Of a stretch of DNA of 20,177 bases, positions 5,561 to 20,177 are shown piece after piece (position 1 is the stretch's first letter; the number at the start of each line of letters is the position of its first letter). This DNA is from a virus. The position numbers and the translations under genes are program-made. The notes under the pieces were generated by a model. It was given only the letters and a program-made list of their open reading frames with translations, had not been told where the DNA came from and ran no database searches. The stretch is taken from positions 1 to 20,177 of IMG/VR virus record IMGVR_UViG_3300029982_000660. One strand, given 5' to 3'.

Positions 5561-7150
5561 ATGCTCATGTCACCGGACTTATTTCTCGATTGTATTCTGT
5601 TCATCATCAATGATAACACAGACCAATCTCGTATCCTTGTTCGAGAGCTCATTATGCTCTTTGAAATTGATGCCCGTAACAATTCAACAATCGATCACGA
5701 TATTGCTCGTTTTTATATCCGTATTCTCAAAGCTATTATGGATACTGGGGTCTCAAAAAAGAACCCGGATGAACTGCGTATTATTCTTCTCAAGTTCCAA
5801 TCAGATGCTGTTTTGTCTAAACGAGGAGAAATTTATCAGTTATTGAATGCCACGTTTATGTCAACAGAATTGATGACACCAGAAAAACGTCAATCCTATG
5901 TTGATCGTATTCAAAATGTGCTCATCATGAACCGTTGTAATAAAATGGCACGGTCGTTTTATGGCACATTGGCTAAAGCTGGTGACATGATCAATCCGTT
6001 AGATCAAATTGCTGAATTAAGAAAACTCACTGGAATTGCTAAAGAAGTTGAAACTGCATTTGAAAATACAGCATCCACCACATCCTCAGGTGGTCGTTCT
6101 TTAATTGAACGAATTGATTTGTCTGATAAAACTTCGATGCAGGCAGGTCTACAGAAGCATAAAGAGATGGCGGTAACCGGGGTAATGAAACTTGGTTTAC
6201 AAGGCCTTAATCGTATGTTAGGTAAACGAGGTGGTCTTGCACGGGGCGAGTCAATGGCCTTTTATGCTCTTCCTCATCATTATAAATCTGGTATGCTGAT
6301 GAGTATCACTGGATGGATTGCTTTGTATAATGCTCCAGCTTTAGCACCAGAAGATATTGGAAAAAAAGCTCTTGTTCTTCTAATTTCTCTAGAAAATGAA
6401 GCGTATCAGAATTTTGTTTGGATGTTCCGTCACTTCTATCAGACAATCAATCAAATGACATCAGATCACCTGACGGATGATCAAGTGACTACCTGGACAT
6501 ATGAAGCATTTTCTGCTAAAGGATACACATTGATCATTGAACGACATCTGCCTTCTAAGTTTAATTATCCACAGTTTGTCGAAACGATTGAGATGTTTGA
6601 AAACTCAGGATTTGCCGTAGTTCTTGCCAGTGTAGATTATCCCAACCTAATGGCAAAAGATGGAATTAGTTCCGAACCTGCAGGTCGACATGATCTTGCA
6701 GTACGAGCCTTGTTCAGTGCCTTGTGTAACTATACTAAAACCAAAGGCATTACCTTTGTTGGGGCACACCCATTAAACCGAGAGGCCAAGAAGTTAGCGT
6801 CAAGTGGTATCACCAATGTTGTTAAACGACTTGATACCAATCAATTGGCAGATTCCTTTGATGTGACACGTGAAATTGATGTTGAAGTCTTTGTTCACAT
6901 CGAACGTAATCTCGAGGGAACCTCTTATCTGACAATGCAACGTGGAAAACATCGGTATGTCGATGATACGCCGGTAGCTCATCAATATTGTGCATATCGG
7001 TTTCATCCGGTGTTTGGTATTCGAGATGATGTAGAATTATCTCCTGAATATATAACAGATATTTATTCAGACCCACTTAGCACCCAAGGTGATCGTGGGG
7101 TTCCCAATCAGCCCCATGAAGCAGATGATGAGCAGATTTCGCTCTTCTAA
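5561..7150 (+). CDS. DnaB-like replicative helicase
   Basis: A 529-residue protein with the motif order of a DnaB-family 5'-3' replicative helicase, which unwinds DNA ahead of the polymerase. The N-terminal ~190 residues are helical. The RecA-like core follows. The P-loop is ALPHHYKSG (A236 to G244, K242, S243). ISLENE (E278) corresponds to DnaB 'SLEM'. ASVDYPNLM (D359, Y360) corresponds to 'DYLQLM'. GAHPLNREAKKL (about 401-412) corresponds to 'QLNREAE'. The Walker A glycines are replaced by Ala and Tyr, but the Lys and Ser are kept. The start ATG at 5561 has GGGA 7 nt upstream; ATG at 5567 is possible. The C-terminal ~30 residues are acidic and may bind partners. Two hairpins follow the stop. 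Family is secure; full ATPase activity is inferred. Confidence 0.85.
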   Translation: MLMSPDLFLDCILFIINDNTDQSRILVRELIMLFEIDARNNSTIDHDIARFYIRILKAIMDTGVSKKNPDELRIILLKFQSDAVLSKRGEIYQLLNATFMSTELMTPEKRQSYVDRIQNVLIMNRCNKMARSFYGTLAKAGDMINPLDQIAELRKLTGIAKEVETAFENTASTTSSGGRSLIERIDLSDKTSMQAGLQKHKEMAVTGVMKLGLQGLNRMLGKRGGLARGESMAFYALPHHYKSGMLMSITGWIALYNAPALAPEDIGKKALVLLISLENEAYQNFVWMFRHFYQTINQMTSDHLTDDQVTTWTYEAFSAKGYTLIIERHLPSKFNYPQFVETIEMFENSGFAVVLASVDYPNLMAKDGISSEPAGRHDLAVRALFSALCNYTKTKGITFVGAHPLNREAKKLASSGITNVVKRLDTNQLADSFDVTREIDVEVFVHIERNLEGTSYLTMQRGKHRYVDDTPVAHQYCAYRFHPVFGIRDDVELSPEYITDIYSDPLSTQGDRGVPNQPHEADDEQISLF

Positions 7151-7170
7151 AAATGACATTGTATTCTAAA

Positions 7171-7200
7171 CTCTGGTGTTTGATAAAGTGTGCACCAGAG
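7171..7200. terminator. Hairpin after helicase gene
   Basis: CTCTGGTG (7171-7178) pairs with CACCAGAG (7193-7200) around a 14-nt loop, about 20 nt after the helicase stop. No U-tract follows. It is weaker than the other hairpins in this window. Confidence 0.4.
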
Positions 7201-7228
7201 TGGTAATAAATAATACAGTGTTGTATAT

Positions 7229-7264
7229 TGTATGCACCCACACACCTCTTGATGGGAGCATACA
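7229..7264. terminator. Second hairpin after helicase gene
   Basis: TGTATGCACCCA (7229-7240) pairs with TGGGAGCATACA (7253-7264), 12 bp with one mismatch and a 12-nt loop. An A-rich run, not a U-run, follows on the plus strand. It may end the helicase transcript or mark the leader of the next gene. Confidence 0.45.
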
Positions 7265-7367
7265 CAAAAAAATATAGTCACAGACTTAATGTGATTATAC
7301 TCGTGCATCTTCTGTGGTATTCATATTTGTATGAAGCCATTCCTGCCAACTGCGAAAACAAAGGCGT

Positions 7368-8504
7368 ATGATTTCAATGGATAATTCTGAAGTTCAGGAA
7401 CCATCACTGTTCATTCAGTTTGATGAGGTAGAGTCTCCTGTCGAAAATAAAATTCCTATGTTCAAGAGTGAACGTGGTTTCAATATCAACATTGCTGAGA
7501 TCGCCAAGACGATCTATGAGCAAGGTATCGACGCAGTTCGTCTTATTGCTATTCCTTCCGTTGTTCGTGAACAGCATCGCGGTGATGACCGTTGCGACAC
7601 CCCCACTCTTTCAGAAGTCGGCGTTGCCACCGTTTCGTATGGTACCGGATTCGAATTCTGTCAGGTCATCGCAGGCACCGACGCTCGTCCAGTCAACATT
7701 GATAATGTCCTTTTTGTCAACAACGATCCAGCCAATACTGGTATCAATCATGGTACAATTGGTGTCGGTATCGGTACTTATTTCGCCATCGGCTGGAAGC
7801 GTCGGGCTGATAGTTTGACTCTGATCTATCGCGTGATCGAATGTGAAGAATATCTCTCCAGTGAGAACCAGCCACTCGATCGCAACAAGCGGGCGGCTCG
7901 TCCGATTGCAAAATTGACATGTTCGTTAGCAGGACATTCAACCCGCACCTGGCGTGGTGAGAGCGGCGATGTTCCGGCGGCACTTGCAGCACTACACGGA
8001 GCTACCGAAGAGCGAATGACATCTGACTACAGTGTCCCTGTGTACATGGACATGATTCGGATGATCAGTAGCACGGATGCCAGTCGTGCCATTGCTTCCA
8101 ACATGAAGCAGGGTGCATATGGGCCAATCGAATCCTGCACGCCAGAAACCTTCCGTCGGAAGATCTATGCGGAAATCGTGTCGGTTCGTAACAGTCAATA
8201 TGCAGACTTGCCGACGAGTGGCGATACCAAACGCAAGGTTGGGCCGTTGCATGCCGTTGAGACCATCGAGCTCGATCGTGAGCTTAATCTCATTCGGATC
8301 GAAATGGTCATTCCGCGGACGGATGGGTTGTCTCCCGTGCACTATAGGACGGAAGTAACTGCAGACAACTTCTTTGATCTCGATAGCCGCATTGCATTGG
8401 AACGTGGTCTTGTGTTGAAATGTTCGTCGTTTGAACGTTTCCGTACTGAACTGGAATCTCGCCGTGATCCGATTATCTCGGTGCATCTGACCAGTATCCG
8501 CTAA
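7368..8504 (+). CDS. Unknown protein with highly biased codons
   Basis: A 378-residue soluble protein that I do not recognise. It lacks signal peptides, membrane segments and obvious catalytic motifs. The first ~30 residues are acidic, followed by mixed alpha/beta sequence with several glycine-rich strands (for example GTIGVGIGTYFAIGW near residue 130). Like the putative capsid gene, and unlike the adjacent helicase, it favours C-ending and CGT/GGT codons, which suggests a very abundant product: a virion protein, a single-stranded DNA-binding protein, or another protein needed in stoichiometric amounts. Start ATG at 7368 has AAAGG only 3 nt upstream. ATG at 7377, 12 nt from the same site, is an equal candidate (375 aa). 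It sits between helicase and recombinase-like genes and converges with the next gene across a 15-bp hairpin. Confidence 0.85.
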   Translation: MISMDNSEVQEPSLFIQFDEVESPVENKIPMFKSERGFNINIAEIAKTIYEQGIDAVRLIAIPSVVREQHRGDDRCDTPTLSEVGVATVSYGTGFEFCQVIAGTDARPVNIDNVLFVNNDPANTGINHGTIGVGIGTYFAIGWKRRADSLTLIYRVIECEEYLSSENQPLDRNKRAARPIAKLTCSLAGHSTRTWRGESGDVPAALAALHGATEERMTSDYSVPVYMDMIRMISSTDASRAIASNMKQGAYGPIESCTPETFRRKIYAEIVSVRNSQYADLPTSGDTKRKVGPLHAVETIELDRELNLIRIEMVIPRTDGLSPVHYRTEVTADNFFDLDSRIALERGLVLKCSSFERFRTELESRRDPIISVHLTSIR

Positions 8505-8518
8505 GCTTAGTGGTTGCA

Positions 8519-8553
8519 CTAACAAGGATCCTCTTATCGAGGATCCTTGTTAG
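8519..8553. terminator. 15-bp hairpin between convergent genes
   Basis: Arms 8519-8533 and 8539-8553 pair perfectly (core AACAAGGATCCTC with GAGGATCCTTGTT) around a 5-nt loop. It lies between the stops of the 7368 and 8566 genes and can act on both strands. There is no U-tract. Confidence 0.65.
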
Positions 8554-8565
8554 GATGACTGTTTA

Positions 8566-9387
8566 TTATCGTTGGCCATGAGTTGTTACAAGCCGTCTCA
8601 GACAAATAACAAAATTATGTTCTACCCTCTGGAGTTCTGTCAGAATAACCCCAAACATATCCAACTGTACACTGGCTGTATGTACCAATTGATACAGAGC
8701 TCGAACTGCAACCTTATCAATAGGTGTGGTCTGAGTTTCAATTGAAGTAACATGTGTATCAATTATTTTTTCAATTGCATCTAATGCAGAACAAACAGTT
8801 TCTACATTCTTAAAAATTGTATCGTATCCAAGAATATGCAGATCAACTGCAATTAACTCATCAAAAGAAGGAATCACACTTCGAAGTGGTACTTCCATTG
8901 TTTTGTTGGCATTGAAAATATCTCTAAGGGTCTTTTCAACATCATTCTTTGATACTTTAGAAATAAGTTTTGTAGTATCTTCTGTTACTGGAAAACGACC
9001 GGCTTGGACTTCACTGAAATAAAATTGAAGAGCTGTTATTGTAGAATTAATATCAAGAGTTGAATATAGAGTTTCAAGGATAGTTGTTGCATGTAGATAT
9101 GTGACCTTCATTCCTGATGGAATGGGTACAGATAGATCCAAATTAAATTGTTGTGTTTTGAAGAACTGATTAATCATGAAGGGATGAGATTCATGATACG
9201 CTAATAATTCAGATCGTTTGAAATTACGATTAAATCCTTTTAAACTAGTTTTGAAATTATTAATGATTCTTGTAAATGTATCAAAGGTTCGAAGAACGAA
9301 CTGATACACTTCAGTTGCATCACTTAATTCAATGGACTCTTCCAGATGTTCAAGTGCAATATACGATACGGGGAGATCGTAGTTCAT
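8566..9387 (-). CDS. Unknown helical protein
   Basis: A 273-residue protein of unknown function. The frame stays open to a TTG at 9411, but ATG at 9385-9387 (MNYDLPVSY) is preceded by GGAG at 9 nt and is the better start. The sequence is mostly amphipathic helices, with repeated Leu/Ile spacing in IEKIIDTHVTSIETQ and the C-terminal VILTELQRVEHNFVICLRR, and has no signal peptide or metal site. Codons are AT-rich like the helicase, unlike the neighbour at 7368. It is divergent from the recombinase-like gene, so it may share a control region with it. A head-interior or assembly protein is possible, but nothing in the sequence demonstrates this. Confidence 0.8.
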   Translation of the reverse strand: MNYDLPVSYIALEHLEESIELSDATEVYQFVLRTFDTFTRIINNFKTSLKGFNRNFKRSELLAYHESHPFMINQFFKTQQFNLDLSVPIPSGMKVTYLHATTILETLYSTLDINSTITALQFYFSEVQAGRFPVTEDTTKLISKVSKNDVEKTLRDIFNANKTMEVPLRSVIPSFDELIAVDLHILGYDTIFKNVETVCSALDAIEKIIDTHVTSIETQTTPIDKVAVRALYQLVHTASVQLDMFGVILTELQRVEHNFVICLRRLVTTHGQR

Positions 9388-9474
9388 TAACAATGACTCC
9401 AGTCTTAACAAAAATGATATCTTGCATTCATAGAATAGAGAAGCATTATTTTTGGAGGTAAATTTAAAATAGAT

Positions 9475-9510
9475 TTGACCTTGGTATGATATGATCGTTT
9501 ATACCAGAAT
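9475..9510. promoter_or_regulatory. Candidate divergent promoter region
   Basis: The gap between the 8566 and 9550 genes has TTGACC (about 9475-9480), a 17-bp spacer and TTTATA, a reasonable sigma70-like promoter reading plus. The spacer holds TGATATGAT, also present in the other divergent gap near 5434. The segment from GGTAT to ATACC is roughly symmetrical, so minus-strand use is also possible. Confidence 0.35.
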
Positions 9511-9549
9511 TAAGGATCTGTCATTTCTTAAAAAGTTCAATACTGTAGT

Positions 9550-11010
9550 ATGTCAATCCCATCATACTCCTCTCTGTATAAAGGAATCTTTTCTGTGAGT
9601 CTTCTACAAACCACCGGATTTCGTGATGCTGGATTTCAACCTTATTTAAATACAGGCACATTACTTGATATTCAAACTGGGGCGTTTGTTCCTGGTGTTC
9701 ATGGCGGTATGGTATTGAATGGCGGATTGAGCACCACCAATGCCGTCATCGGTCGTGAACAAATGTTCAAGTCTACAGAACTATTTTCCTATACCGTTCG
9801 GGCAATGCAGTGGTATCCAAAATCATCATGTCTTGTTTTTGATACAGAATATGCCCAGAAAAAAGATCGATTGATGCATTTTTCTGGATTCACCGATATG
9901 GATGAATTCGATAAACGTATGATTATTACAACACCGGCAGAAGTTACAGCAGAAGATTTCTTTGACCAACTTAAGAAAATGGCTACCTACAAAATTGCCC
10001 ATGCCGATGAGTTTATGGTAGATTCTCCCATCGTGGATCTTCGGACAGGTAAACCATTACGGATGTGGATACCTACTTTTGTTGTCTATGATAGCTGGTC
10101 AAAAATGACCTCTGGTCATGTTCAATCAACCCTGGATTCAAAAGTTCTTGGATCTTCTGATACCAACATGATCTTCATGAAAGATGGCATGATCAAGAAG
10201 ATGATGCTTTCACAATTACCTCGCTTGGCAACAACTGCAGGTATCTACTTCATGTTATCAGCGCATGTTGGTAACAAATATGAACTCAATCCATATGCAC
10301 AAACTCCTAAAGGTCTTCCTAACATGAAGGCTTCTGACAAACTCAAAGAAGTTGGATCGGATTTCAATTTCTTGATGTCAAACAACATCGAAATGCGTAA
10401 AGTGCACGGATTGTTAGATCCAGATAAACATTGTTTATACCCGAGCTTGGGTGGAAGTGATGCAGAACTCTGTGAAGTGACCTCCGTCATGTTACGTGGT
10501 AAAAACAACATGAGTGGAACGACTCTCCCCCTGGTTGTCAGTCAGATGGGTGGAATTCAGAGCGAACTTAGTAATTACCATTATCTACGTGAGAATGGTT
10601 ATTTTGGTTTAATTGGCAACAAGACTACGCACAAACCGGCAATGACGGATGTCAGTATTAGTCGAAATACGGTTCGACAGAAAGTAACGGATCCAAAAGT
10701 TGCTCATGCCATCGAACTACTTGCTCAGTTATGTTACATCCAAAACAACTGGGTGGTTCCATCAACATCTGAAGTTGATTTTCTTATGAAGCCAGAAGAT
10801 CTAGCTGAAAAGCTACTAGGGAGTGACTCCCCAAGTATGACTGATGTTTTGGAGAGTCGTTCCACATGGACATACGATAAGACGAATACCCAGCCATATT
10901 TGTCTCTTTATGATGTGTTGGCTATTGCCCAAGGTGTCTATAAAGCAAAAGGTATTGCACTCTCAGGATTTGGAGTGACAAAACCAGTGAGTTCTAAAAA
11001 AGCAGCTTGA
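9550..11010 (+). CDS. RecA/UvsX-like recombination ATPase
   Basis: A 486-residue P-loop ATPase of the RecA superfamily, most like phage UvsX recombinases that drive strand exchange. The P-loop is GREQMFKST (G68, K74, S75), with Phe where Gly normally precedes Lys. T4 UvsX, from memory, has the same aromatic change (GPSKSFKS). CLVFDTEYAQKKDRL (E100) matches the RecA/UvsX catalytic Glu region, FVVYDSWSKM (D181) is Walker B, and FMLSAHVG near 234-241 matches the strand before the sensor loop. The C-terminal ~150 residues are not recognised and could bind DNA. ATG at 9550 has no good ribosome site; GTG at 9595, 9 nt after AAAGGA and in frame, is a real alternative (471 aa). A second DnaB-like helicase is less likely. 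A hairpin follows the stop. Confidence 0.72.
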   Translation: MSIPSYSSLYKGIFSVSLLQTTGFRDAGFQPYLNTGTLLDIQTGAFVPGVHGGMVLNGGLSTTNAVIGREQMFKSTELFSYTVRAMQWYPKSSCLVFDTEYAQKKDRLMHFSGFTDMDEFDKRMIITTPAEVTAEDFFDQLKKMATYKIAHADEFMVDSPIVDLRTGKPLRMWIPTFVVYDSWSKMTSGHVQSTLDSKVLGSSDTNMIFMKDGMIKKMMLSQLPRLATTAGIYFMLSAHVGNKYELNPYAQTPKGLPNMKASDKLKEVGSDFNFLMSNNIEMRKVHGLLDPDKHCLYPSLGGSDAELCEVTSVMLRGKNNMSGTTLPLVVSQMGGIQSELSNYHYLRENGYFGLIGNKTTHKPAMTDVSISRNTVRQKVTDPKVAHAIELLAQLCYIQNNWVVPSTSEVDFLMKPEDLAEKLLGSDSPSMTDVLESRSTWTYDKTNTQPYLSLYDVLAIAQGVYKAKGIALSGFGVTKPVSSKKAA

Positions 11011-11793: not shown

Positions 11794-14193
11794 TTAGATG
11801 GGGCAAACCCCACTCTCGCATTGCAGATGTACCAAATCAATTTCTTCATTGTCAATTTCAGCTTTGATACCCTTGACAATGGCAGCATATCGATCCAATG
11901 AAATTTCTTCTTCTGGAAGATATTCATATCCGAGTTCTGCATCGGATTTGCTTGGAAGAATAGCACAACATCTGATGGTAGATTGTTGTTCTCGTACAAT
12001 CGTGCGGAACTCAGTCAAAGAGAAGTTTCCAGTAGAAACTTTCAGTGTATAGCTTACCTGATTACCCTGGTTCGCACCAATCCAGTATCGTTCCAAGAGA
12101 CGAAGCCACTGATATTGTTTTGTCGGTGATGCTTCACTGGCGGTAACACCACGGTCTCCGATATTGAGGCGGAACAGATACGGGATAGTTGGAAAACCAA
12201 CAACGGTCATTCCTTGGAATGTTTGAAGAGTTTTCATAGGATATCCCTGAGCAGCATATGTAGCTAACCGAGCATCTGCACTAGCATCCCACTCACCAGT
12301 TTCTTCACTACGAGTCCCTCTGAATTGAACCCAGCGGAGATATTGACGACGGGCAGGAAGATGCGCACCTTCAGTCAACCCAAACAACTTGGATGTTGTC
12401 CCAGCTGGTTTTATGGTGGTGACTGTCATTGGTCGCTCTTGACCAAGGAAGTCGGAATATGAGTTACCTTCATCTTTGGCAGCAGTAGAGAACCGCTCAA
12501 TTGTAGTCCAAAATGGTTCTGATTTAACAGGATCAAGAAGATCATTAAAATCAAGACCAAATCGCATCCAGGCATATTCATGCAAACCAGTTGGGCCAAT
12601 GCCAATACGATTCGTACGAGCAATTTCTTTACCATAAAGAGCATTCATGGTATTGACACGAATCAGAAATCTAACACCCAGTCGAACAGATTCTTCAATC
12701 CGATTATCCCAATCCCACGCAAGATCTTCAGAAATTGCACCAGGAAAAAAGGAGTCAAGATCAATAGGGCAGGCAAGAAGTGGTGCATAATCGGCGATGA
12801 CGCATACGCCACCCATTACATGCAAGGGGATTTCCCCGCACGGGTTAGTAGTTACTGGGAATTGTGATTTTGCACTTCGACGAGAGAGTTCAGCTAACAG
12901 ATCACAGGCATCATCAACGTGGTATCGATCACTTTGAAAATCTTCACCATTTTCATAAACAGGACGTGTCCAGGCAGTACCATTACGATGATCTTCAAGG
13001 GCATCTCCGTTGATGAACCCAGGTTCTCCGTTGATATATGCACAATGGGTTACTTCATCAAACACAGCATGTGCTTTGATTGACAGCGGATCTGCTGTCA
13101 TCTCAGCTTGGACATAATTCCAAAACTTCTTATCAACCATCACTGAATGGTTAGCTGTCCATAGCCCACCTTCAATCTTGATTCGAACAAACTTAAGAAT
13201 ATCTGGATCATACCAGCTCTTTGTTGCCATTCGAGCTGCTCTTCGAGCACCGCCTACTTGTACTTCAACTGAAAAGTAATGATCGATTCGCAGAGCCATC
13301 TCCCAAAGAGACATTGACAGATCTGATTTGATCACATGATTGCGGATATTGATAAAGGCACGCATGATTGAAACTGGACCAGAGGCTGGTCGATTTTGCA
13401 TTCCACCGATGGGAGAACCTAGTGGTCGAACATCTGAGAAATCCAACAATAGAGTCTTATTACTCTCGCGCCGGAAGGTCATTGACTCGAGAATCTCAGC
13501 CGATTTGCCCCATCCCTCACGACTGTCTGCAACCTTATGATATACAGTATTTGAAGCAAGGTTTGTAAGATCTTGAACAAAATTAGTAGCCATGAATTTC
13601 TTCATGATACCATTTTCATCAGATGTTGTGCCATAAGGTAACACACCGAGATCGACACCAAGTTGACACCGGGCTGCTGCACTATGCGGATAATCAGGAT
13701 GTGTTGGTGCCAAATACAATTGGAGGGTTGGAGCACGATGCCAATCAACGATCATCAAGGTATCATCATAAGAACGACCAACTCCTGATCCATTGAGGAG
13801 AAGATAGAACTTAGCAAAACAAGCACTGGCCGTCGCGCAATTTGTATATAATTCCATATTTTTGAGGGATTGCGAGGCATCACCATGTTGAAGATGACGT
13901 CCTGATGTCAACAGAGATCCTGTAGCAATAGCATTCCGAAGTCGCATCTGCTCTTGTTGTTCAAATTCATTCAGAGGATGTTTGAGGAGTGACATATTAC
14001 CGGCAGCAACACGATCTGCAACTCGTCCAAAAGATTCTTCATCACCCTCTCGAAAAATAGTACGACGAGCTACAGCAATACCCATACCAAGATCAAGTGC
14101 CCGGGAGGTAACTGGTTCATGACCAAAATGATGAGTTGGTGTTGTGAGGCAAGTTGTTGCATCAGAGTCAGAAAGTTTCACTGAAAAGTTCAT
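11794..14193 (-). CDS. nrdJ: Class II (B12-dependent) ribonucleotide reductase
   Basis: Converts ribonucleotides to deoxyribonucleotides with adenosylcobalamin as radical source, feeding phage DNA synthesis. It resembles the monomeric triphosphate reductase of Lactobacillus leichmannii. Counting from the in-frame TTG at 14202: YTNCATASACF holds the N-terminal redox Cys (C122). TTNPCGEIPL carries the thiyl-radical Cys and catalytic Glu (C455, E457), with the redox partner C467 twelve residues on (GGVC). The C-terminal CESGVCPI gives the shuttle pair C795/C800. VGGARRAARM near 316-325 matches the class II 'GNVRRSA' segment. All catalytic residues expected for class II are present. ATG at 14193 (799 aa) has GAGGG 10 nt upstream and is preferred over the TTG. 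No small-subunit gene is nearby, as expected for class II. The leader contains an inverted repeat. Confidence 0.88.
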   Translation of the reverse strand: MNFSVKLSDSDATTCLTTPTHHFGHEPVTSRALDLGMGIAVARRTIFREGDEESFGRVADRVAAGNMSLLKHPLNEFEQQEQMRLRNAIATGSLLTSGRHLQHGDASQSLKNMELYTNCATASACFAKFYLLLNGSGVGRSYDDTLMIVDWHRAPTLQLYLAPTHPDYPHSAAARCQLGVDLGVLPYGTTSDENGIMKKFMATNFVQDLTNLASNTVYHKVADSREGWGKSAEILESMTFRRESNKTLLLDFSDVRPLGSPIGGMQNRPASGPVSIMRAFINIRNHVIKSDLSMSLWEMALRIDHYFSVEVQVGGARRAARMATKSWYDPDILKFVRIKIEGGLWTANHSVMVDKKFWNYVQAEMTADPLSIKAHAVFDEVTHCAYINGEPGFINGDALEDHRNGTAWTRPVYENGEDFQSDRYHVDDACDLLAELSRRSAKSQFPVTTNPCGEIPLHVMGGVCVIADYAPLLACPIDLDSFFPGAISEDLAWDWDNRIEESVRLGVRFLIRVNTMNALYGKEIARTNRIGIGPTGLHEYAWMRFGLDFNDLLDPVKSEPFWTTIERFSTAAKDEGNSYSDFLGQERPMTVTTIKPAGTTSKLFGLTEGAHLPARRQYLRWVQFRGTRSEETGEWDASADARLATYAAQGYPMKTLQTFQGMTVVGFPTIPYLFRLNIGDRGVTASEASPTKQYQWLRLLERYWIGANQGNQVSYTLKVSTGNFSLTEFRTIVREQQSTIRCCAILPSKSDAELGYEYLPEEEISLDRYAAIVKGIKAEIDNEEIDLVHLQCESGVCPI

Positions 14194-14223
14194 CAGACTC
14201 AAGCCCTCATAGTTGAATAGTTA

Positions 14224-14418: not shown

Positions 14419-15033
14419 TTATGGGATAGGAGCTGGTGGTTCTGGTGCCACCCAGGCACTTCCTACAAGACCAACACCAAGTGCAGTTAGCAAGGCATCA
14501 TCATACAAAGCCACTGCTTCTGCAAATGCTGTAAATTCAGTGGTAGATGGGAATAGGTGAGGGGTTCCCGTAATATCTAACCAATTACGAGTGGATTGAC
14601 CATTGGTAAACTTTCCAGCTGTAGTGATGTAGACTTGTTCACTCGTGATGCGACCGATACTGGTTTGATCCAAGGGATATGTTCCATTAAGAGCAGGAGT
14701 TCCTGTACTTACAATGATCACACCAGCTACAACAGCCGCATTGTAGGCAGTCTGTGCCAGTTGTGCAAGAGTGGGGGTCGTTGGAACAACAGGCCAATCT
14801 CCTACAATAGCAGAAGAAAGTATTGCACTTGTGACAGACAATCCAGGCCGAATCGTCAGTGTATAATCTGTTCGTACATTGACATATGCAATTCCGTTAA
14901 CAACAACAGGACCCAATATGGAGTAGCCTGCGACAAGTACATTGGTGTTAATAAGTGTCACTGGATCCGTGATGTTGTTATAGAAAGCATCTGTTATGAT
15001 AGGTAGCGGCCCATTCCAAAGATAATCTGTCAT
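14419..15033 (-). CDS. DUF4376-like tail-fibre accessory protein
   Basis: A 204-residue protein. The second half has the flow of the DUF4376 type found next to phage tail fibres: GTPALNGTYPLDQTSIGRIT, then a short region ending NWLDITG, then a C-terminal helix EFTAFAEAVALYDDALL. The N-terminal half is beta-rich with several VNV/YVNVR strands and may bind a fibre. ATG at 15031-15033 has AAGAAGG 7 nt upstream, 26 nt after the stop of the hydrolase gene. It is the last gene of the minus-strand tail cluster. Its role is probably fibre assembly or a fibre tip part. The family call is from remembered pattern, not an alignment. Confidence 0.6.
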   Translation of the reverse strand: MTDYLWNGPLPIITDAFYNNITDPVTLINTNVLVAGYSILGPVVVNGIAYVNVRTDYTLTIRPGLSVTSAILSSAIVGDWPVVPTTPTLAQLAQTAYNAAVVAGVIIVSTGTPALNGTYPLDQTSIGRITSEQVYITTAGKFTNGQSTRNWLDITGTPHLFPSTTEFTAFAEAVALYDDALLTALGVGLVGSAWVAPEPPAPIP

Positions 15034-15059: not shown

Positions 15060-16931
15060 TTAATGTAATGATGCATAATATCCAGCAACAATCATAGCAG
15101 CTGCTTGTGCACTTACAGCCATTTCAAAGTTAGATCCACCCTGATGTGCTTTGAACCATAGTCCTTGACAGGGTCCTTCCCAGGATCCACCATAGGTTCC
15201 ATTTGCACACCTAGCATTCAGAGCGGCTGCCCATGCTGTTGTTACTAAAGAGGTTTTATCCAGTTGCGTTCCTGCTGTACCCGTCAACCGAGGGATAACT
15301 TCATGTGCATAATAATAGACTGCGAATGCATTATCACTCGCATCTCGATCATTGAGAACGATATTGGTAGAACTCACCATTTCGTGACTGCGCATCCCAG
15401 TTGCAACCTGATTGAGACGTGTTAAATATGCGGTATTTCCAGTGATGGCATAAAGCCGAGATTCCAATACGGCATATGCCATATTGGCTTCAAGCATAGT
15501 GACGGATCCTGCTTCATAGATACCATAGGGTTGATTTGTAGATTGTGAAATACCATATGGTGCAGTTCCATTTGGTTGGGTATCCATCCACAACAACCCA
15601 TCAGTTGGATATATATAAGACCCAGCAGGGAGTCCAACTGTTGAAGAAGTTAGCACAATGCTACCCGTGGTGGGTGTCCCGACAGCAGTAACAGTAAGAT
15701 GGTTTCCAACAGGTGTAAATATAGAAATTGTGGGTCCGGGTGCCACTGCTGAAATTCCAGAAGTGACAATAGCTGGTGTGGTATTAATCAGAGTCACCAA
15801 ACTTGCTGCAATTGTAGCTATTGTATCTGAACCTGTTTCTGTATAAGTTAAGGTTACTGGAGATCCACTAATACAGGTACATGTAAGTGTCACGGATGCT
15901 GTATTGCCTGTTGTAATACTTGCACCATATGGTAAGTTGACAGTTACAAGAGAGATTGCTTGTGCTGAGACAGCCTGTCCATTTCGAAAAAGAGCTGCAG
16001 TTAACCACACCTCTTCTTGTTCTGCTTTAATGAGATATGATGTATCCGATGCACCAGCAGAAACTGTATCATTATAATACTGAATAAGATCCACTGCATA
16101 TTGAACTTGGTATGCCGTCTTTCCAGTTTTGGTATCATCATACCAAAGACCACCACCAAGAGCATTATCTGCCCATCGTGTCCATGCACAATCCAATATA
16201 CCTTTGGCATAGGTCAATGCTGTTGGATCTAATGTAGCTTCATACAACATCAACAAACCACCGGTAGTCCACGCTGCATCGTCCTGAGCAGCAGCTGTAG
16301 CAGAGGCCTGACACTGTTGCATTTGGGTTACTGTATATGTGGCATTGACCCATGCCCATTGTTGTTGTAGTTTTTGATAAGCGACAGGGGATCCTGACGT
16401 TTTCCACCAACTATATGCCACATTGATACTTTGTGATGTTGTCCACATGCGATCTGCAAGATATCCACCACCAGGATTCAGAATTGTCCATTCAGCTGCA
16501 GGAGGACTTGCATAAATAACACTAGCTGTGCTTCCTCCAAGGGAAGGTGTATAGTTAGTTGAATTAATACCTGTTAGTGCAAATGTTGTATTGGTCAGAA
16601 CTGTTATGGTGTAGGGACCACCATTAATTTGAGACATTCCTGTTTCATTTGTAATCCAAACGGTCTGACCTGTTTGATATCCATTGTCAAAGCTGGTTGT
16701 TACAACTGCAGGATTTGCCTGTGTTATATTTGTAATAATAGAAGTTGATGGTTGAAATGTAGTAGCGAGTATGTCAAATGTACCAGTATTTGTACCCTGA
16801 AACCAAAACCAAGATACTGTGTCATCAAATGCGCGTTGTGCGAGACTTGAGAGAGATAGCGCAACAAGAGGTTGCGCCACTGCTGAGATCGAAATACATA
16901 AATAAAACAGAAGTATCCTAATAATTGACAT
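15060..16931 (-). CDS. Exported GH76-like glycosidase with two inserted tail domains
   Basis: A 623-residue protein with a Sec-type signal peptide: an 'R' then a hydrophobic run (ILLFYLCISISAVA) with an AVA cleavage site near residue 19. About 27-54 looks like the first helix of an alpha/alpha barrel. About 65-140 is an FCCH-like phage domain (ITQANPAVVTTSFDNGYQ to STNYTPS). About 145-315 has GH76 features: AQDDAAW with the paired catalytic Asp (D217, D218), then LMLYEATLDPTALTYAKGIL, GGGLWYDD and KTAYQ. About 321-432 is a beta-rich domain with YTETGSDTIATIAASL, common in phage tails. From about 443 the helical fold resumes (DGLLWMDTQ, YEAGSVTMLEANMAYAVLE). GH76 enzymes cut alpha-1,6-mannans. 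The start overlaps the preceding gene by 14 nt. The hydrolase role is inferred; a related six-hairpin glycosidase is possible. Confidence 0.65.
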   Translation of the reverse strand: MSIIRILLFYLCISISAVAQPLVALSLSSLAQRAFDDTVSWFWFQGTNTGTFDILATTFQPSTSIITNITQANPAVVTTSFDNGYQTGQTVWITNETGMSQINGGPYTITVLTNTTFALTGINSTNYTPSLGGSTASVIYASPPAAEWTILNPGGGYLADRMWTTSQSINVAYSWWKTSGSPVAYQKLQQQWAWVNATYTVTQMQQCQASATAAAQDDAAWTTGGLLMLYEATLDPTALTYAKGILDCAWTRWADNALGGGLWYDDTKTGKTAYQVQYAVDLIQYYNDTVSAGASDTSYLIKAEQEEVWLTAALFRNGQAVSAQAISLVTVNLPYGASITTGNTASVTLTCTCISGSPVTLTYTETGSDTIATIAASLVTLINTTPAIVTSGISAVAPGPTISIFTPVGNHLTVTAVGTPTTGSIVLTSSTVGLPAGSYIYPTDGLLWMDTQPNGTAPYGISQSTNQPYGIYEAGSVTMLEANMAYAVLESRLYAITGNTAYLTRLNQVATGMRSHEMVSSTNIVLNDRDASDNAFAVYYYAHEVIPRLTGTAGTQLDKTSLVTTAWAAALNARCANGTYGGSWEGPCQGLWFKAHQGGSNFEMAVSAQAAAMIVAGYYASLH

Positions 16932-18399
16932 TTATTTTTACCCCAGCAGGGGCAGCCGTGGTGTCAGTGTCACCATCCGCACCGGTTCCGCAGGCTGCAA
17001 GCCCAGAATTTACATAAGCTCCTCGTGCAAGTGCCCAAGAAAAACGAGTTCCTGCAGGAATGCGATATGAAGAATCGAGGACTTGACCATTTCCACCTGA
17101 ACTAGTTGGCCAGGTTCCATGGGCGCAATTGGGAGTGCCATTAAAGTCATAGGTTCTCCAATAAAAATCAGATGTAGTATAATTTTCAATATCAAGTCCA
17201 CAGAATTGTTGATTGCCACCCGATGCCACTGAGAGAGCATTAACGCCAGCTGTTGTATTTCCAGACAAGTGCCACCAATGGGGACATCCTCCACTTGAAG
17301 AAAACGTGTCAACGGATAAAACAACACACGTTGCTACGCAATTCGTCCGAAAACTAGTATATCCAGTAATTACAGCTCCTGTAGACAAACCACTCAGTTG
17401 CCATTCAAAATAGGTTTCGGATACAGCACACTGAAATGCACCAGAATAGTTACCAACTGTACTTATCTGAATACCAGAAATACCACGAAAACATCCAGGA
17501 GATACTGAATGCCAAGTACCAGGCTGACCACTTTCTGATACGACCGGAGTAAGCGTAACACTTCCACTTGTAACTGTAATATCAATGTTTGCTTCACGAT
17601 ATCCATAGTTACTTGCGTTGACATATCCAACAGCAGTGGTTCCGGATGATAAAGAAAATGGACTGGTGCTGGGTGATGTAATGGCAAAAGAACAGGGGGC
17701 AGAGGCACTGACTACGACACCATTACAGACAAGAGCAGTATAAAGAGGAGTAGATGAAGACGATCCGCCTGTCATACTCTGTAATTGTGTTTGTACCCCT
17801 GTTATATTTGAATAGACACCTTTGATTGCAGAAATGATAGAAGAACTACCAGTTCCAGTATATGTTGAATCTGCAGGTGTTCCAACTCCTGAAACAAGAG
17901 TAGTATTTTGTGTTGTGATAGTAGAAAGATTACCACCCGTTTCTAATGCCGCTCCCGTTGGAAGCGGTAATGTTGCAACACTAACAGGTTGTGTGGGTTG
18001 CCAAAAAGTACCAGAGACAGAGAGGGTGCCTGATAGTTTAGTGTAGATGCCAGAAAGCCACCCTCGAATCCCACTCCCTCCTGGGAGTTGAGTTGCACTC
18101 GTTATATCACTTCCGTTTGCTGTGGCAATAGAAGCAAGATTTCCACCTGCTTCTTGTGCAGCACCGGATGGTAGTGGTAATGATGTTGTTGAAAACGATA
18201 ACGTCGTTCCTAGTTTTTGATAGAGTCCCTTTAATACTGAAATGACAGAGGTGGTACCAGATCCTGTATATGCTGTATCTGATATAGTACCAATAGCAGT
18301 AATACCACTTACCTGTGTAGCATTACCTGGAGTTCCTTGTCCATAAACAAGAGTTGTTGAAAGTAACAGCACCATAAGACACTGTAAAAAATACTTCAT
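16918..18399 (-). CDS. Exported cysteine-rich tail-fibre-like protein
   Basis: A 493-residue protein beginning with a clear Sec signal peptide (MKYF, then LMVLLLSTTLVYG, cleavage near residue 20). About 34-200 is built of repeats shared with the next gene upstream: LPLPSGAA and LPLPTGAA with GGNL, GIRGWLSGIYTKL, and TYTGTGSSSIISAIKGVY. About 205-493 is beta-rich and unrecognised, with roughly nine or ten cysteines (for example NCVATC), suggesting disulfides formed outside the cytoplasm. ATG at 18397-18399 has AGGAGG 9 nt upstream, and that site overlaps the stop of the upstream gene. It overlaps the hydrolase gene by 14 nt. A fibre or adhesin is likely from the repeats, but the signal peptide is unexpected for a virion part assembled in the cytoplasm. 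Confidence 0.75.
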   Translation of the reverse strand: MKYFLQCLMVLLLSTTLVYGQGTPGNATQVSGITAIGTISDTAYTGSGTTSVISVLKGLYQKLGTTLSFSTTSLPLPSGAAQEAGGNLASIATANGSDITSATQLPGGSGIRGWLSGIYTKLSGTLSVSGTFWQPTQPVSVATLPLPTGAALETGGNLSTITTQNTTLVSGVGTPADSTYTGTGSSSIISAIKGVYSNITGVQTQLQSMTGGSSSSTPLYTALVCNGVVVSASAPCSFAITSPSTSPFSLSSGTTAVGYVNASNYGYREANIDITVTSGSVTLTPVVSESGQPGTWHSVSPGCFRGISGIQISTVGNYSGAFQCAVSETYFEWQLSGLSTGAVITGYTSFRTNCVATCVVLSVDTFSSSGGCPHWWHLSGNTTAGVNALSVASGGNQQFCGLDIENYTTSDFYWRTYDFNGTPNCAHGTWPTSSGGNGQVLDSSYRIPAGTRFSWALARGAYVNSGLAACGTGADGDTDTTAAPAGVKINVNY

Positions 18400-18962
18400 G
18401 ATAGTTAACCTCCTGCAATCATAAGTTGGACAGACCCGGAATCTGAAATTGCACTAATTGCTGCTGTTGGTATAGCGATTGCACCACCAAATACAAATTC
18501 GCCTTCTCCTGCCCAGATAGGAATTCCAGTACCAATAACAGCAGGTCCTCCTGTAACATTAAGATATATGTTTGCAGTTCCACCGGATGGAAGAGAAAGA
18601 ATTAAAGATTCTGTTATGAATCCAGCTGCTACAATTTGAGTTGAAGTGGTACCTACTGCAATACTTTCAGAGATTGTGTATGTGAGAGGTGTTGCTTTGG
18701 TAGCCAATTTGCTATTTAACAAACCAATAACAGATTTTAACAGGGACACAATTGTTCCTGCACCAGTTCCAGAGTAACTGGTATCTTCTGGTGTACCAGT
18801 TGCAGTTGCAATTAGTATTGTCTGTGCAGTAGTTGTTGCAAGATTGCCTCCGGATTCAACAGCGGCTCCCGTCGGAAGTGGCAATGTAGTGACACTTACC
18901 GATAACGTCCCATTGAGTTTAGCATAGATACCAGAAAGCCAGCCACGAACACCAACACCACC
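17800..18962 (-). repeat. Tail-type sequence module repeated across two genes
   Basis: One protein module occurs three times in whole or part. It occurs once in the 212-aa gene (residues about 28-110, DNA about 18714-18962) and twice in the 493-aa gene (residues about 34-92 and 105-197, DNA about 17800-18300). Marker strings are RGWLSGIYxKLxGTLSVS, LPLPxGAAxExGGNL and DTxYxGxG. The pattern suggests module duplication within a tail-fibre cluster. Confidence 0.7.
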
Positions 18963-19043
18963 AGTTGGTTCAATGATGCCTGTGGCATCTACTCCTTCTT
19001 CAGGTGTTAATGAATCAGGACTTCCAAATACATCCCTGCCCAT
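18405..19043 (-). CDS. Tail/baseplate-type repeat protein
   Basis: A 212-residue protein without a signal peptide. Residues about 28-110 carry the repeat module found twice in the following gene (GVRGWLSGIYAKLNGTLSVS, LPLPTGAAVESGGNL, DTSYSGTG). Residues about 115-212 are beta-rich with alternating hydrophobic residues and end in VQLMIAGG. ATG at 19041-19043 has AAAGGA 8 nt upstream. It follows a 34-bp palindrome that separates it from the Hint-domain gene, and is 5 nt from the start of the 493-aa gene. 'LPLPTGAA' repeats are frequent in phage tail proteins, so a small virion fibre or decoration protein is the likely role. The exact place in the virion is unknown. Confidence 0.7.
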   Translation of the reverse strand: MGRDVFGSPDSLTPEEGVDATGIIEPTGGVGVRGWLSGIYAKLNGTLSVSVTTLPLPTGAAVESGGNLATTTAQTILIATATGTPEDTSYSGTGAGTIVSLLKSVIGLLNSKLATKATPLTYTISESIAVGTTSTQIVAAGFITESLILSLPSGGTANIYLNVTGGPAVIGTGIPIWAGEGEFVFGGAIAIPTAAISAISDSGSVQLMIAGG

Positions 19044-19082
19044 GTCAAATATCCTTTACAGTAAGTCTTTCTATAAGATGGC

Positions 19083-19116
19083 CGATGTCATCACGCAATA
19101 TTGCGTGATGACATCG
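19083..19116. terminator. 34-bp perfect palindrome
   Basis: CGATGTCATCACGCAAT (19083-19099) is followed directly by its reverse complement (19100-19116). It lies 9 nt past the stop of the Hint-domain gene on the minus strand and about 40 nt before the next start. No U-tract follows. It is the longest perfect palindrome in the window. Confidence 0.65.
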
Positions 19117-19125
19117 AACAGAAAC

Positions 19126-20177
19126 TTAAACTTCTTTTTTAGTCCACGTCGAGTAATCAAAATCAACTTCAGTTGGCCATCCGGTGACTGCATATCCGTT
19201 TACAGTATACGTATGACTTCCAGCTACAACCAAGTTATAAAGCTTGGTCTCTGGCGGCATACGATATTGTGTAAACGTTTCTACCATCTTAGGTCCATTC
19301 AGAGTCTGTAACACGATACCTTGTGTAAGGGTATTTATCATACCTTTAGAAAGACCTGTGTTAGTCCACATCTCTATAGAGCCATCCTGGAGGATAACTG
19401 GGAAATCGTGTCCCCACTCTTTATAAATGGCATCAACTTCTGGACTATAAAACTTGCGGTCTGGCGAGATGTGTGGATGATCGTCTGAGGTATCGTGTTC
19501 GTTGTTAATATTGTACATGTTGCGATCACCCAGGACAACAAAGTCCAACCCACGGATCGTATTGAGTTCTCCAAATGCTCCCACAACAGTATCCCCGGGA
19601 AGAACTGTCTCAATGGGTTTGAATGAACCATCGCCCATTTTAACAGGAGATCCTGCAAGAAAACATGAACCTCCAGGCTCAAAGTAAAATGGCGTATCTG
19701 TGGGAGTTGGAGTAGGAGTTGGCGTATCTGTGGAAGTTGGAGTAGGAGTTGGCGTAGCTGTGGGAGTTGGAGTAGGAGTTGAGGTAGAAGTAGCTGTGGG
19801 AGTCGGAGTAGTAGTTGAGGTAGAAGTAGGTGTCGGAGTTGGCGTTGAGGTGGAAGTTGTGGTGGGAGTTGGTGTCGGAGTGGGTGTTAGTGCATAATGA
19901 GTAAGCGTAGCATTAAGTGCATCGATTGTTTCATAATTGGCAAGATTTGCAGTAAGTATTGCAACCTGTGTCGTAAGTGCAGCAACTTGTGATGTCATAC
20001 TAACAATAGCATTCAGATATATAACAACTGGAAGATTAACATACAGAGTACTACCATCTCCGATTTTAAGAGCAGTTGTATCTGTTGCATATACGACCAG
20101 ACCGGCTGGAATTGGAATGGTAATAGTATTCCAAACGGTCTGCGTACCACCCACAAATTGTGTGATTGCATCGATCA
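19126..20177 (-). CDS. Tail-fibre-like protein with C-terminal Hint domain (partial)
   Basis: The frame stays open to the right edge (reading I-D-A-I-T-Q-F before the GTG at 20154), so the N-terminus is missing. Counting from that GTG, about 15-42 contains DTTALKIGDGSTLYVNLPV, like the N-terminal 'KIGDGST' motif of phage fibres and Mtd. About 45-85 is a coiled coil with VAALTTQVAILTANLANY. About 90-155 is a Thr-Pro repeat linker. About 162-330 is a Hint (hedgehog/intein) domain: GGSCFLAGSPVKMGDGSFKP with C164 as candidate nucleophile, DDHPHISPDRKF as block-B-like (H226), and YNLVVAGSHTYTVNGYAV as block F. The usual terminal His-Asn is replaced by VTG and only about 18 residues follow, so this is not a complete splicing intein. 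It may cleave itself or attach to another nucleophile. Confidence 0.78.
   Translation of the reverse strand, partial: IDAITQFVGGTQTVWNTITIPIPAGLVVYATDTTALKIGDGSTLYVNLPVVIYLNAIVSMTSQVAALTTQVAILTANLANYETIDALNATLTHYALTPTPTPTPTTTSTSTPTPTPTSTSTTTPTPTATSTSTPTPTPTATPTPTPTSTDTPTPTPTPTDTPFYFEPGGSCFLAGSPVKMGDGSFKPIETVLPGDTVVGAFGELNTIRGLDFVVLGDRNMYNINNEHDTSDDHPHISPDRKFYSPEVDAIYKEWGHDFPVILQDGSIEMWTNTGLSKGMINTLTQGIVLQTLNGPKMVETFTQYRMPPETKLYNLVVAGSHTYTVNGYAVTGWPTEVDFDYSTWTKKEV
19690..19884 (-). repeat. Thr-Pro-coding minisatellite
   Basis: Short imperfect repeats of 6-nt units coding for Thr-Pro and Thr-Ser form a linker of about 65 residues between the coiled coil and the Hint domain. Slippage could change linker length. 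On the plus strand the same DNA gives a Val-Gly frame that is only a shadow. Confidence 0.85.

Follow-up and report, generated by a model that had tools for sequence, protein, structure and literature searches.

The usual view is that phages build their tail-type adhesins and depolymerases into virions within the cytoplasm. Two examples resemble the proteins described here, P1 and P2, in being a fibre-type protein and/or a carbohydrate- or ester-cutting enzyme encoded in a tail locus: the GDSL protein gp32 of Arthrobacter phage Nandita, annotated as a minor tail protein, and gp025-gp026 of Aphanizomenon phage CL131 (L122, 4392-6877), in which a fibre-repeat gene overlaps an annotated arabinofuranosidase gene and which is probably the same adhesin-enzyme order in virion-bound form. 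These three proteins lack signal peptides (scores of 1.7, -3.5 and 2.3 on the scale introduced below), whereas P1, P2, a related pair on the contig L102 and two hydrolases of locus L066 each have one.

Phage endolysins are known to reach the host Sec pathway during infection, as for Lys44 of fOg44, Ms6 LysA via Gp1 and the SAR endolysins of phages P1 and 21 (PMC6116005). They share with our pair the routing of a phage enzyme via host Sec, predicted in the case of P2, but they cut peptidoglycan for lysis, whereas P2 is GH76-like, lies in a fibre locus and has a fibre-repeat partner. In lambda, the signal-peptide gene lom sits between the tail spike and tail-fibre genes and encodes an outer-membrane protein (PMC12309495); Lom is a beta barrel of the outer membrane, whereas our pair combines a fibre-repeat protein with an enzyme. 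Glycoside hydrolases occur on peat virus contigs, and endomannanase activity has been confirmed for one of them (PMC6786970). Among enzyme families, GH76 (SsGH76A, 6shd; BcGH76/Aman6; CtGH76) is the best fold match of P2, with a predicted all-helical barrel and an adjacent Asp pair in common; P2 differs in being phage-encoded, in having no PF03663 match, in an identity of about 13-17% in the fold matches, and in its inserted FCCH and beta domains. In the open-access papers searched, where absence is not proof, fibre-locus proteins with paired signal peptides are not described.

Locus architecture

The stretch of DNA analysed, hereafter the window, is the 20,177-base virus record IMGVR_UViG_3300029982_000660, a fragment of a larger phage genome. 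It encodes a phiKZ-type major capsid protein (PF25620, E 1.7e-16 in a profile search), a divergent DnaB-like helicase (divDNAB, 2.6e-81) and a UvsX-like recombinase; read from this 20-kb fragment, the phage is a phiKZ-type jumbo phage (Chimalliviridae), with one relative on a 208-kb contig. On the minus strand, a fibre gene with a Hint-like end is followed by P0, P1, P2, P3 and a class II ribonucleotide reductase gene, which adjoins the fibre locus (Table 1). The open reading frames proposed for P1 and P2 in an earlier note on this DNA were confirmed, and they overlap by 14 bp. P3 is of a kind typical beside the fibres of this phage family, and its C-terminal part recurs downstream of fibres in contigs L002 and L008. 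In the upstream fibre, a Thr/Pro-rich linker leads into the Hint-like domain (PF05203, E 2.2e-4, below cut-off), which stands where the receptor-binding tip would sit.

The window has a twin contig, L002/L007, which matches it at 99.9% identity across 14.6 kb, P0-P3 included, and which has another fibre tip and a DUF4376-like gene upstream of P0. In L008, a 60-kb relative whose ribonucleotide reductase is 75% identical to that of the window, P0, P1 and P2 are absent at the same place and two units, each of a fibre and a DUF4376-like gene, stand there instead. Because the twin's fibre tip differs and the cassette is missing from L008, P0-P1-P2 is, as judged from these alignments, an accessory cassette in a fast-changing receptor-binding/fibre locus. 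Comparison of window positions 19058-20177 with L007 positions 1-1489 indicates a recent fibre-tip swap: the fibre N-terminus is kept (97%, 152 bp), the remainder is exchanged, and a DUF4376-like gene has been gained or lost.

The genuine fibres of the phage family (the upstream fibre and those of L002 and L008) have a common N-terminal segment, GGTQ..WN.I.IPIPAGLVVYATDTTALKIGDGSTLY, which sequence comparison did not find in P1 or P2. There were no relatives of P1 or P2 in eight related contig records, and none was confirmed among 84,980 species genomes by pattern scanning, which can miss distant relatives; for one such scan, two synthetic GH76-like rows were added to the query alignment solely to widen the motif pattern.

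Table 1. Features of the fibre locus and of the proteins P0-P3
Feature	Position	Strand	Basis or remark
Upstream tail-fibre gene, Mtd_N-like start, Hint-like C-terminus	19126..20154	-	phrog_27786 tail spike, 1.1e-6; 5' end outside window
P0, fibre-repeat protein without signal peptide, first cassette gene	18405..19043	-	signal score -1.9
P1, 493 aa	18399-16918	-	ORF confirmed
P1 predicted signal peptide, residues 1-20, MKYFLQCLMVLLLSTTLVYG / QG	18340..18399	-	score 5.3
P1 fibre-type repeat region, residues 21-210	17770..18339	-	homology to P0 and to a repeat widespread in phage tail loci
P1 C-terminal domain, residues 211-493	16921..17769	-	no known family; all 10 mature cysteines
P2, 623 aa	16931-15060	-	ORF confirmed
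P2 predicted signal peptide, residues 1-19, MSIIRILLFYLCISISAVA / QP	16875..16931	-	score 7.2; signal of L102 homologue (8.0) at same position
P2 FCCH-like beta domain, residues 73-126	16554..16715	-	PF16190; inserted relative to L102 homologue
P2 GH76-like catalytic part, first half, residues 163-322	15966..16445	-	L102 identity, Foldseek GH76 matches
P2 predicted catalytic pair, D217-D218	16278..16283	-	profile alignment onto CtGH76 D163/D164
P2 inserted beta domain, residues 323-440	15612..15965	-	missing from L102 homologue
P2 GH76-like part, second half, residues 441-623	15063..15611	-	59% identity to L102
P3, DUF4376-like protein	14419..15033	-	PF14301 E 0.0027, below cut-off
Class II (B12-type) ribonucleotide reductase	11794-14202	-	weak Pfam match, 1.5e-10; phrog_367, 1.8e-73

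Predicted signal peptides and cysteines

The earlier note had claimed Sec signal peptides for both P1 and P2 and none for the flanking repeat protein. We scored N-termini with a home-made predictor that combines n-region charge, h-region hydrophobicity and the -3/-1 rule, calibrated on annotated E. coli K-12 proteins: 12 of the 14 exported proteins score 6.3-7.9, and the maxima are 3.0 for cytoplasmic and 5.0 for inner-membrane proteins. P2 scores 7.2, with a predicted cut after A19, and P1, the weaker of the two, 5.3, with a cut after G20; the neighbours P0 (-1.9) and P3 (-1.1) stay negative, so that both claims are borne out. P1 and P2 are the only genes to reach 5 among 69 (non-redundant, 120 aa or longer, taken from the loci retrieved for the phage and its relatives), and on the related 60-kb and 208-kb contigs 1/60 and 3/169 genes do so, none of them fibre-like. 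Both N-termini have the features of Sec/SPase I substrates, namely a positive n-region, a hydrophobic h-region and small residues at -3/-1. The ATG of P1 is preceded at 9 nt by a perfect AGGAGG (18409-18414), and therefore its hydrophobic N-terminus should be translated; P2 has no alternative Met upstream of residue 99. As far as sequence can tell, the predicted Sec/SPase-I-type signal peptides at the start of P1 and P2 are real, although the P1 N-terminus could possibly be an uncleaved anchor, because its score is barely above those of inner-membrane proteins.

Direct family searches with P1 gave no match in Pfam, PHROGs, NCBIfam or PDB, and its repeat region was recognized by comparison with P0 (blastp E 5.5e-32, low-complexity filter off). 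Both proteins had been described as cysteine-rich, which holds for P1, with 10 cysteines in the mature part, all within the C-terminal 290 residues, but not for P2, whose 6 in about 600 aa are ordinary and do not exceed those of cytoplasmic proteins of the same phage. Mature cysteine counts are even in P1, P2 and both L102 proteins (10, 6, 6 and 4), a weak hint that disulfides may form. Cysteine richness as general evidence of export was rejected, as the cysteine content of signal-bearing proteins is not significantly raised (p 0.11).

A GH76-like enzyme and its relative in an unrelated phage

A motif-guided scan recovered one true relative of P2, on the contig IMGVR_UViG_3300009177_000094 (L102). 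This 433-aa enzyme is 57% identical to P2 over both helical enzyme parts and has neither the FCCH region nor the beta domain of residues 323-440; the homology extends through the N-terminal segment nearly to the signal peptide (local score 46, against a shuffled mean of 19.7, sd 3.6). It has a signal peptide of its own (score 8.0), which differs in sequence from that of P2, and Cys 207, 248, 575 and 588 of P2 are conserved in it. The gene directly before it overlaps it by 4 bp, and the 386-aa product has a signal score of 7.1 and a tail-fibre match (phrog_18345, 2.3e-7). The contig (G009; 29.5 kb, GC 64% in the L102 part) carries a terminase and a head-tail adaptor and is therefore podovirus-like and unrelated to the jumbo phage. 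By these comparisons, a signal-bearing pair of fibre-like and enzyme genes appears to be conserved in two unrelated phages. It had been proposed to look for the pair in other jumbo phages; L008 has none, and it was the podovirus-like contig that yielded a pair with signals.

The FCCH domain (PF16190, 28.6 bits against a cut-off of 29.5, E 1.5e-6) was the only sequence-search match of P2. A first structure model of P2 drew on two near-identical sequences and was of no use (pLDDT 31). The L102 protein was modelled from three sequences at low confidence (pTM 0.58, mean pLDDT 49), and this model predicts the (alpha/alpha) barrel fold of GH76: the top PDB matches in Foldseek were GH76 structures or annotated relatives, with 6shd best (E 4.8e-5), then 6y8f and 6shm, and later 4d4b, 4boj and others. 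A profile of P2 and the L102 protein matches CtGH76 (9r4k) weakly (whole-sequence E 0.0088, domain E 0.15), and the QDDAAW motif aligns to chain residues 163/164, those mutated in the inactive variants 9r4o and 9r4p. We refer to P2 as GH76-like, not as a GH76 member, because the family profile PF03663 fails to match it; by prediction it is a distant GH76-like enzyme (alpha-1,6-mannanase fold) that keeps the Asp-Asp pair.

These results divide two further claims of the earlier note. The remaining domains were said to be tail-like, which is true of the P1 repeats and the P2 FCCH domain but not of the body of P2, a GH76-type enzyme by prediction. As for the idea of tail-like proteins given signals, P1 does have a fibre-type repeat; P2, judged from its alignment with the L102 enzyme, is better read as an exported GH76-like enzyme that received a tail-type FCCH insert than as a signal-acquiring tail protein.

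Repeat-bearing fibre loci in other viruses

A scan with the repeat shared by P0 and P1 turned up 195 viral stretches that carry a related one. Most carriers lack a signal peptide, with 6/64 scoring at least 6; those that have one lie in L030, L034, L059, L032, L087 and L091 (start corrected) and, more weakly, in L046. The directly neighbouring gene is also signal-bearing in L030, L034, L046 and L091, as is a nearby gene in L059. A baseplate wedge protein and a tail fibre are encoded just upstream of the repeat loci of L030 and L034, a terminase lies near that of L087, and the L046 locus adjoins an endolysin on a 308-kb phage contig. There (6042-9607), three consecutive genes have signal peptides, the middle one containing the fibre repeat, and the endolysin follows directly.

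Across the 741 genes of the survey, from which the window's twin was left out, 24 score at least 6. Adjacent signal-bearing pairs number 5 against 0.55 expected (0/5000 global shuffles; within-locus p 0.029) and signal-bearing genes are commoner at the repeat gene and directly beside it than far from it (13/167 vs 7/351 genes, p 0.0026), but these numbers are indicative only, because all loci were sampled around one repeat and some are mutually related. Comparing the survey proteins for a GDGT-like attachment motif (0/6 vs 4/59) gave no information either way. The signals of L083 and L088 (score 5.4) were discarded as false positives of the scorer, as their N-termini resemble that of a signal-free repeat protein in L123.

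In L066, two signal-bearing GDSL hydrolases (5992-7209 and 8458-10596) are encoded behind tail genes, and one is also arabinofuranosidase-like. In the Nandita homologue of the L066 GDSL protein, the N-terminal stretch of about 75 residues differs and a signal peptide is absent, and the Arthrobacter phage homologues of the first L066 protein, annotated as tail protein or esterase, are signal-free.

Discussion

We consider it reasonably probable that P1 and P2 are Sec-exported proteins acting on the envelope, a glycan hydrolase with a glycan-binding partner, and not parts of the virion. The pairing of a surface enzyme with an adhesin, put forward in the earlier note, survives in predicted form, with P2 as a likely surface-glycan enzyme and P1 as the bearer of a fibre-type repeat.

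Both proteins could instead be tail or fibre components of the virion whose hydrophobic N-terminus is an uncut membrane or assembly anchor, as would suit their location among fibre and DUF4376 genes and the presence of the P1 repeat and the P2 FCCH domain in tail-locus proteins of other phages. We regard this as rather unlikely, since neither has the N-terminal segment common to the family's fibres, signal peptides are found in few repeat carriers, and in an unrelated podovirus-like phage the L102 pair retains signals that have -3/-1 sites, the FCCH domain being missing there. Auxiliary metabolic or moron genes, through which the host would secrete a mannan-degrading enzyme and a binding protein for carbon or fitness and not for adsorption or release, have precedents in the glycoside hydrolases of peat virus contigs, including the confirmed endomannanase (PMC6786970), and in lambda lom, a signal-bearing gene between tail genes (PMC12309495). 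To this explanation we give little weight, given the co-location of P1 and P2 with fibre genes, the pairing of the enzyme with a fibre-repeat protein in two unrelated phages, and a pattern scan of the 84,980 species genomes that confirmed no bacterial homologue (distant ones being missable), which together point to a use particular to the phage. An artefact, through miscalled starts, N-termini that are hydrophobic by chance or a chimeric contig, might be suspected from a home-made predictor and fragmentary virus contigs; the perfect Shine-Dalgarno sequence of P1 and the independent signal-bearing L102 pair make it very improbable, and chimerism is ruled out by the twin contig.

For P1 and P2 as exported proteins, we infer a course of events from export and cleavage through disulfides, substrate and partnership to the benefit for the phage. 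The two would be made with Sec signals and exported from the cytoplasm of the infected cell during infection; outside the cytoplasm the signals would be removed and disulfides could form. As a GH76-like glycan hydrolase, P2 would cut host envelope or extracellular polysaccharide, and P1, based on a tail-fibre-type repeat, would be its binding partner. Acting free in the envelope or extracellularly, they would trim a receptor or barrier glycan, and the likeliest benefit would be removal of receptor or exopolysaccharide, whether against superinfection or for the release of progeny. Signal peptides would be understandable on proteins that act before lysis or that need an oxidising compartment to fold. 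In diderm hosts Sec by itself ends in the periplasm, and we found no route for P1 and P2 across the outer membrane; in such a host they could trim periplasmic glycan precursors or be released at lysis.

The signal-bearing pair in two unrelated phages suggests that some phages convert tail-type binding and cutting proteins into exported ones. A broader and more tentative proposal, which we hold to be possible but less than even in its chances, is a "secreted tail" programme in many unrelated environmental phages, in which fibre-locus adhesins and glycan- or ester-cutting enzymes would exist in virion-bound and exported forms, a Sec signal would replace the attachment domain, and the exported forms would remodel the infected cell surface before lysis. 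From the pair one would predict that the signals are cleaved, that virions contain neither protein and that the enzyme has a defined catalytic Asp pair. A recurring exported tail-type toolkit, if true, would mean that some phages already work on the surface of their host ahead of lysis, and the exported forms would bear on superinfection control, on escape from exopolysaccharide and on the reading of "tail fibre" annotations in environmental phages.
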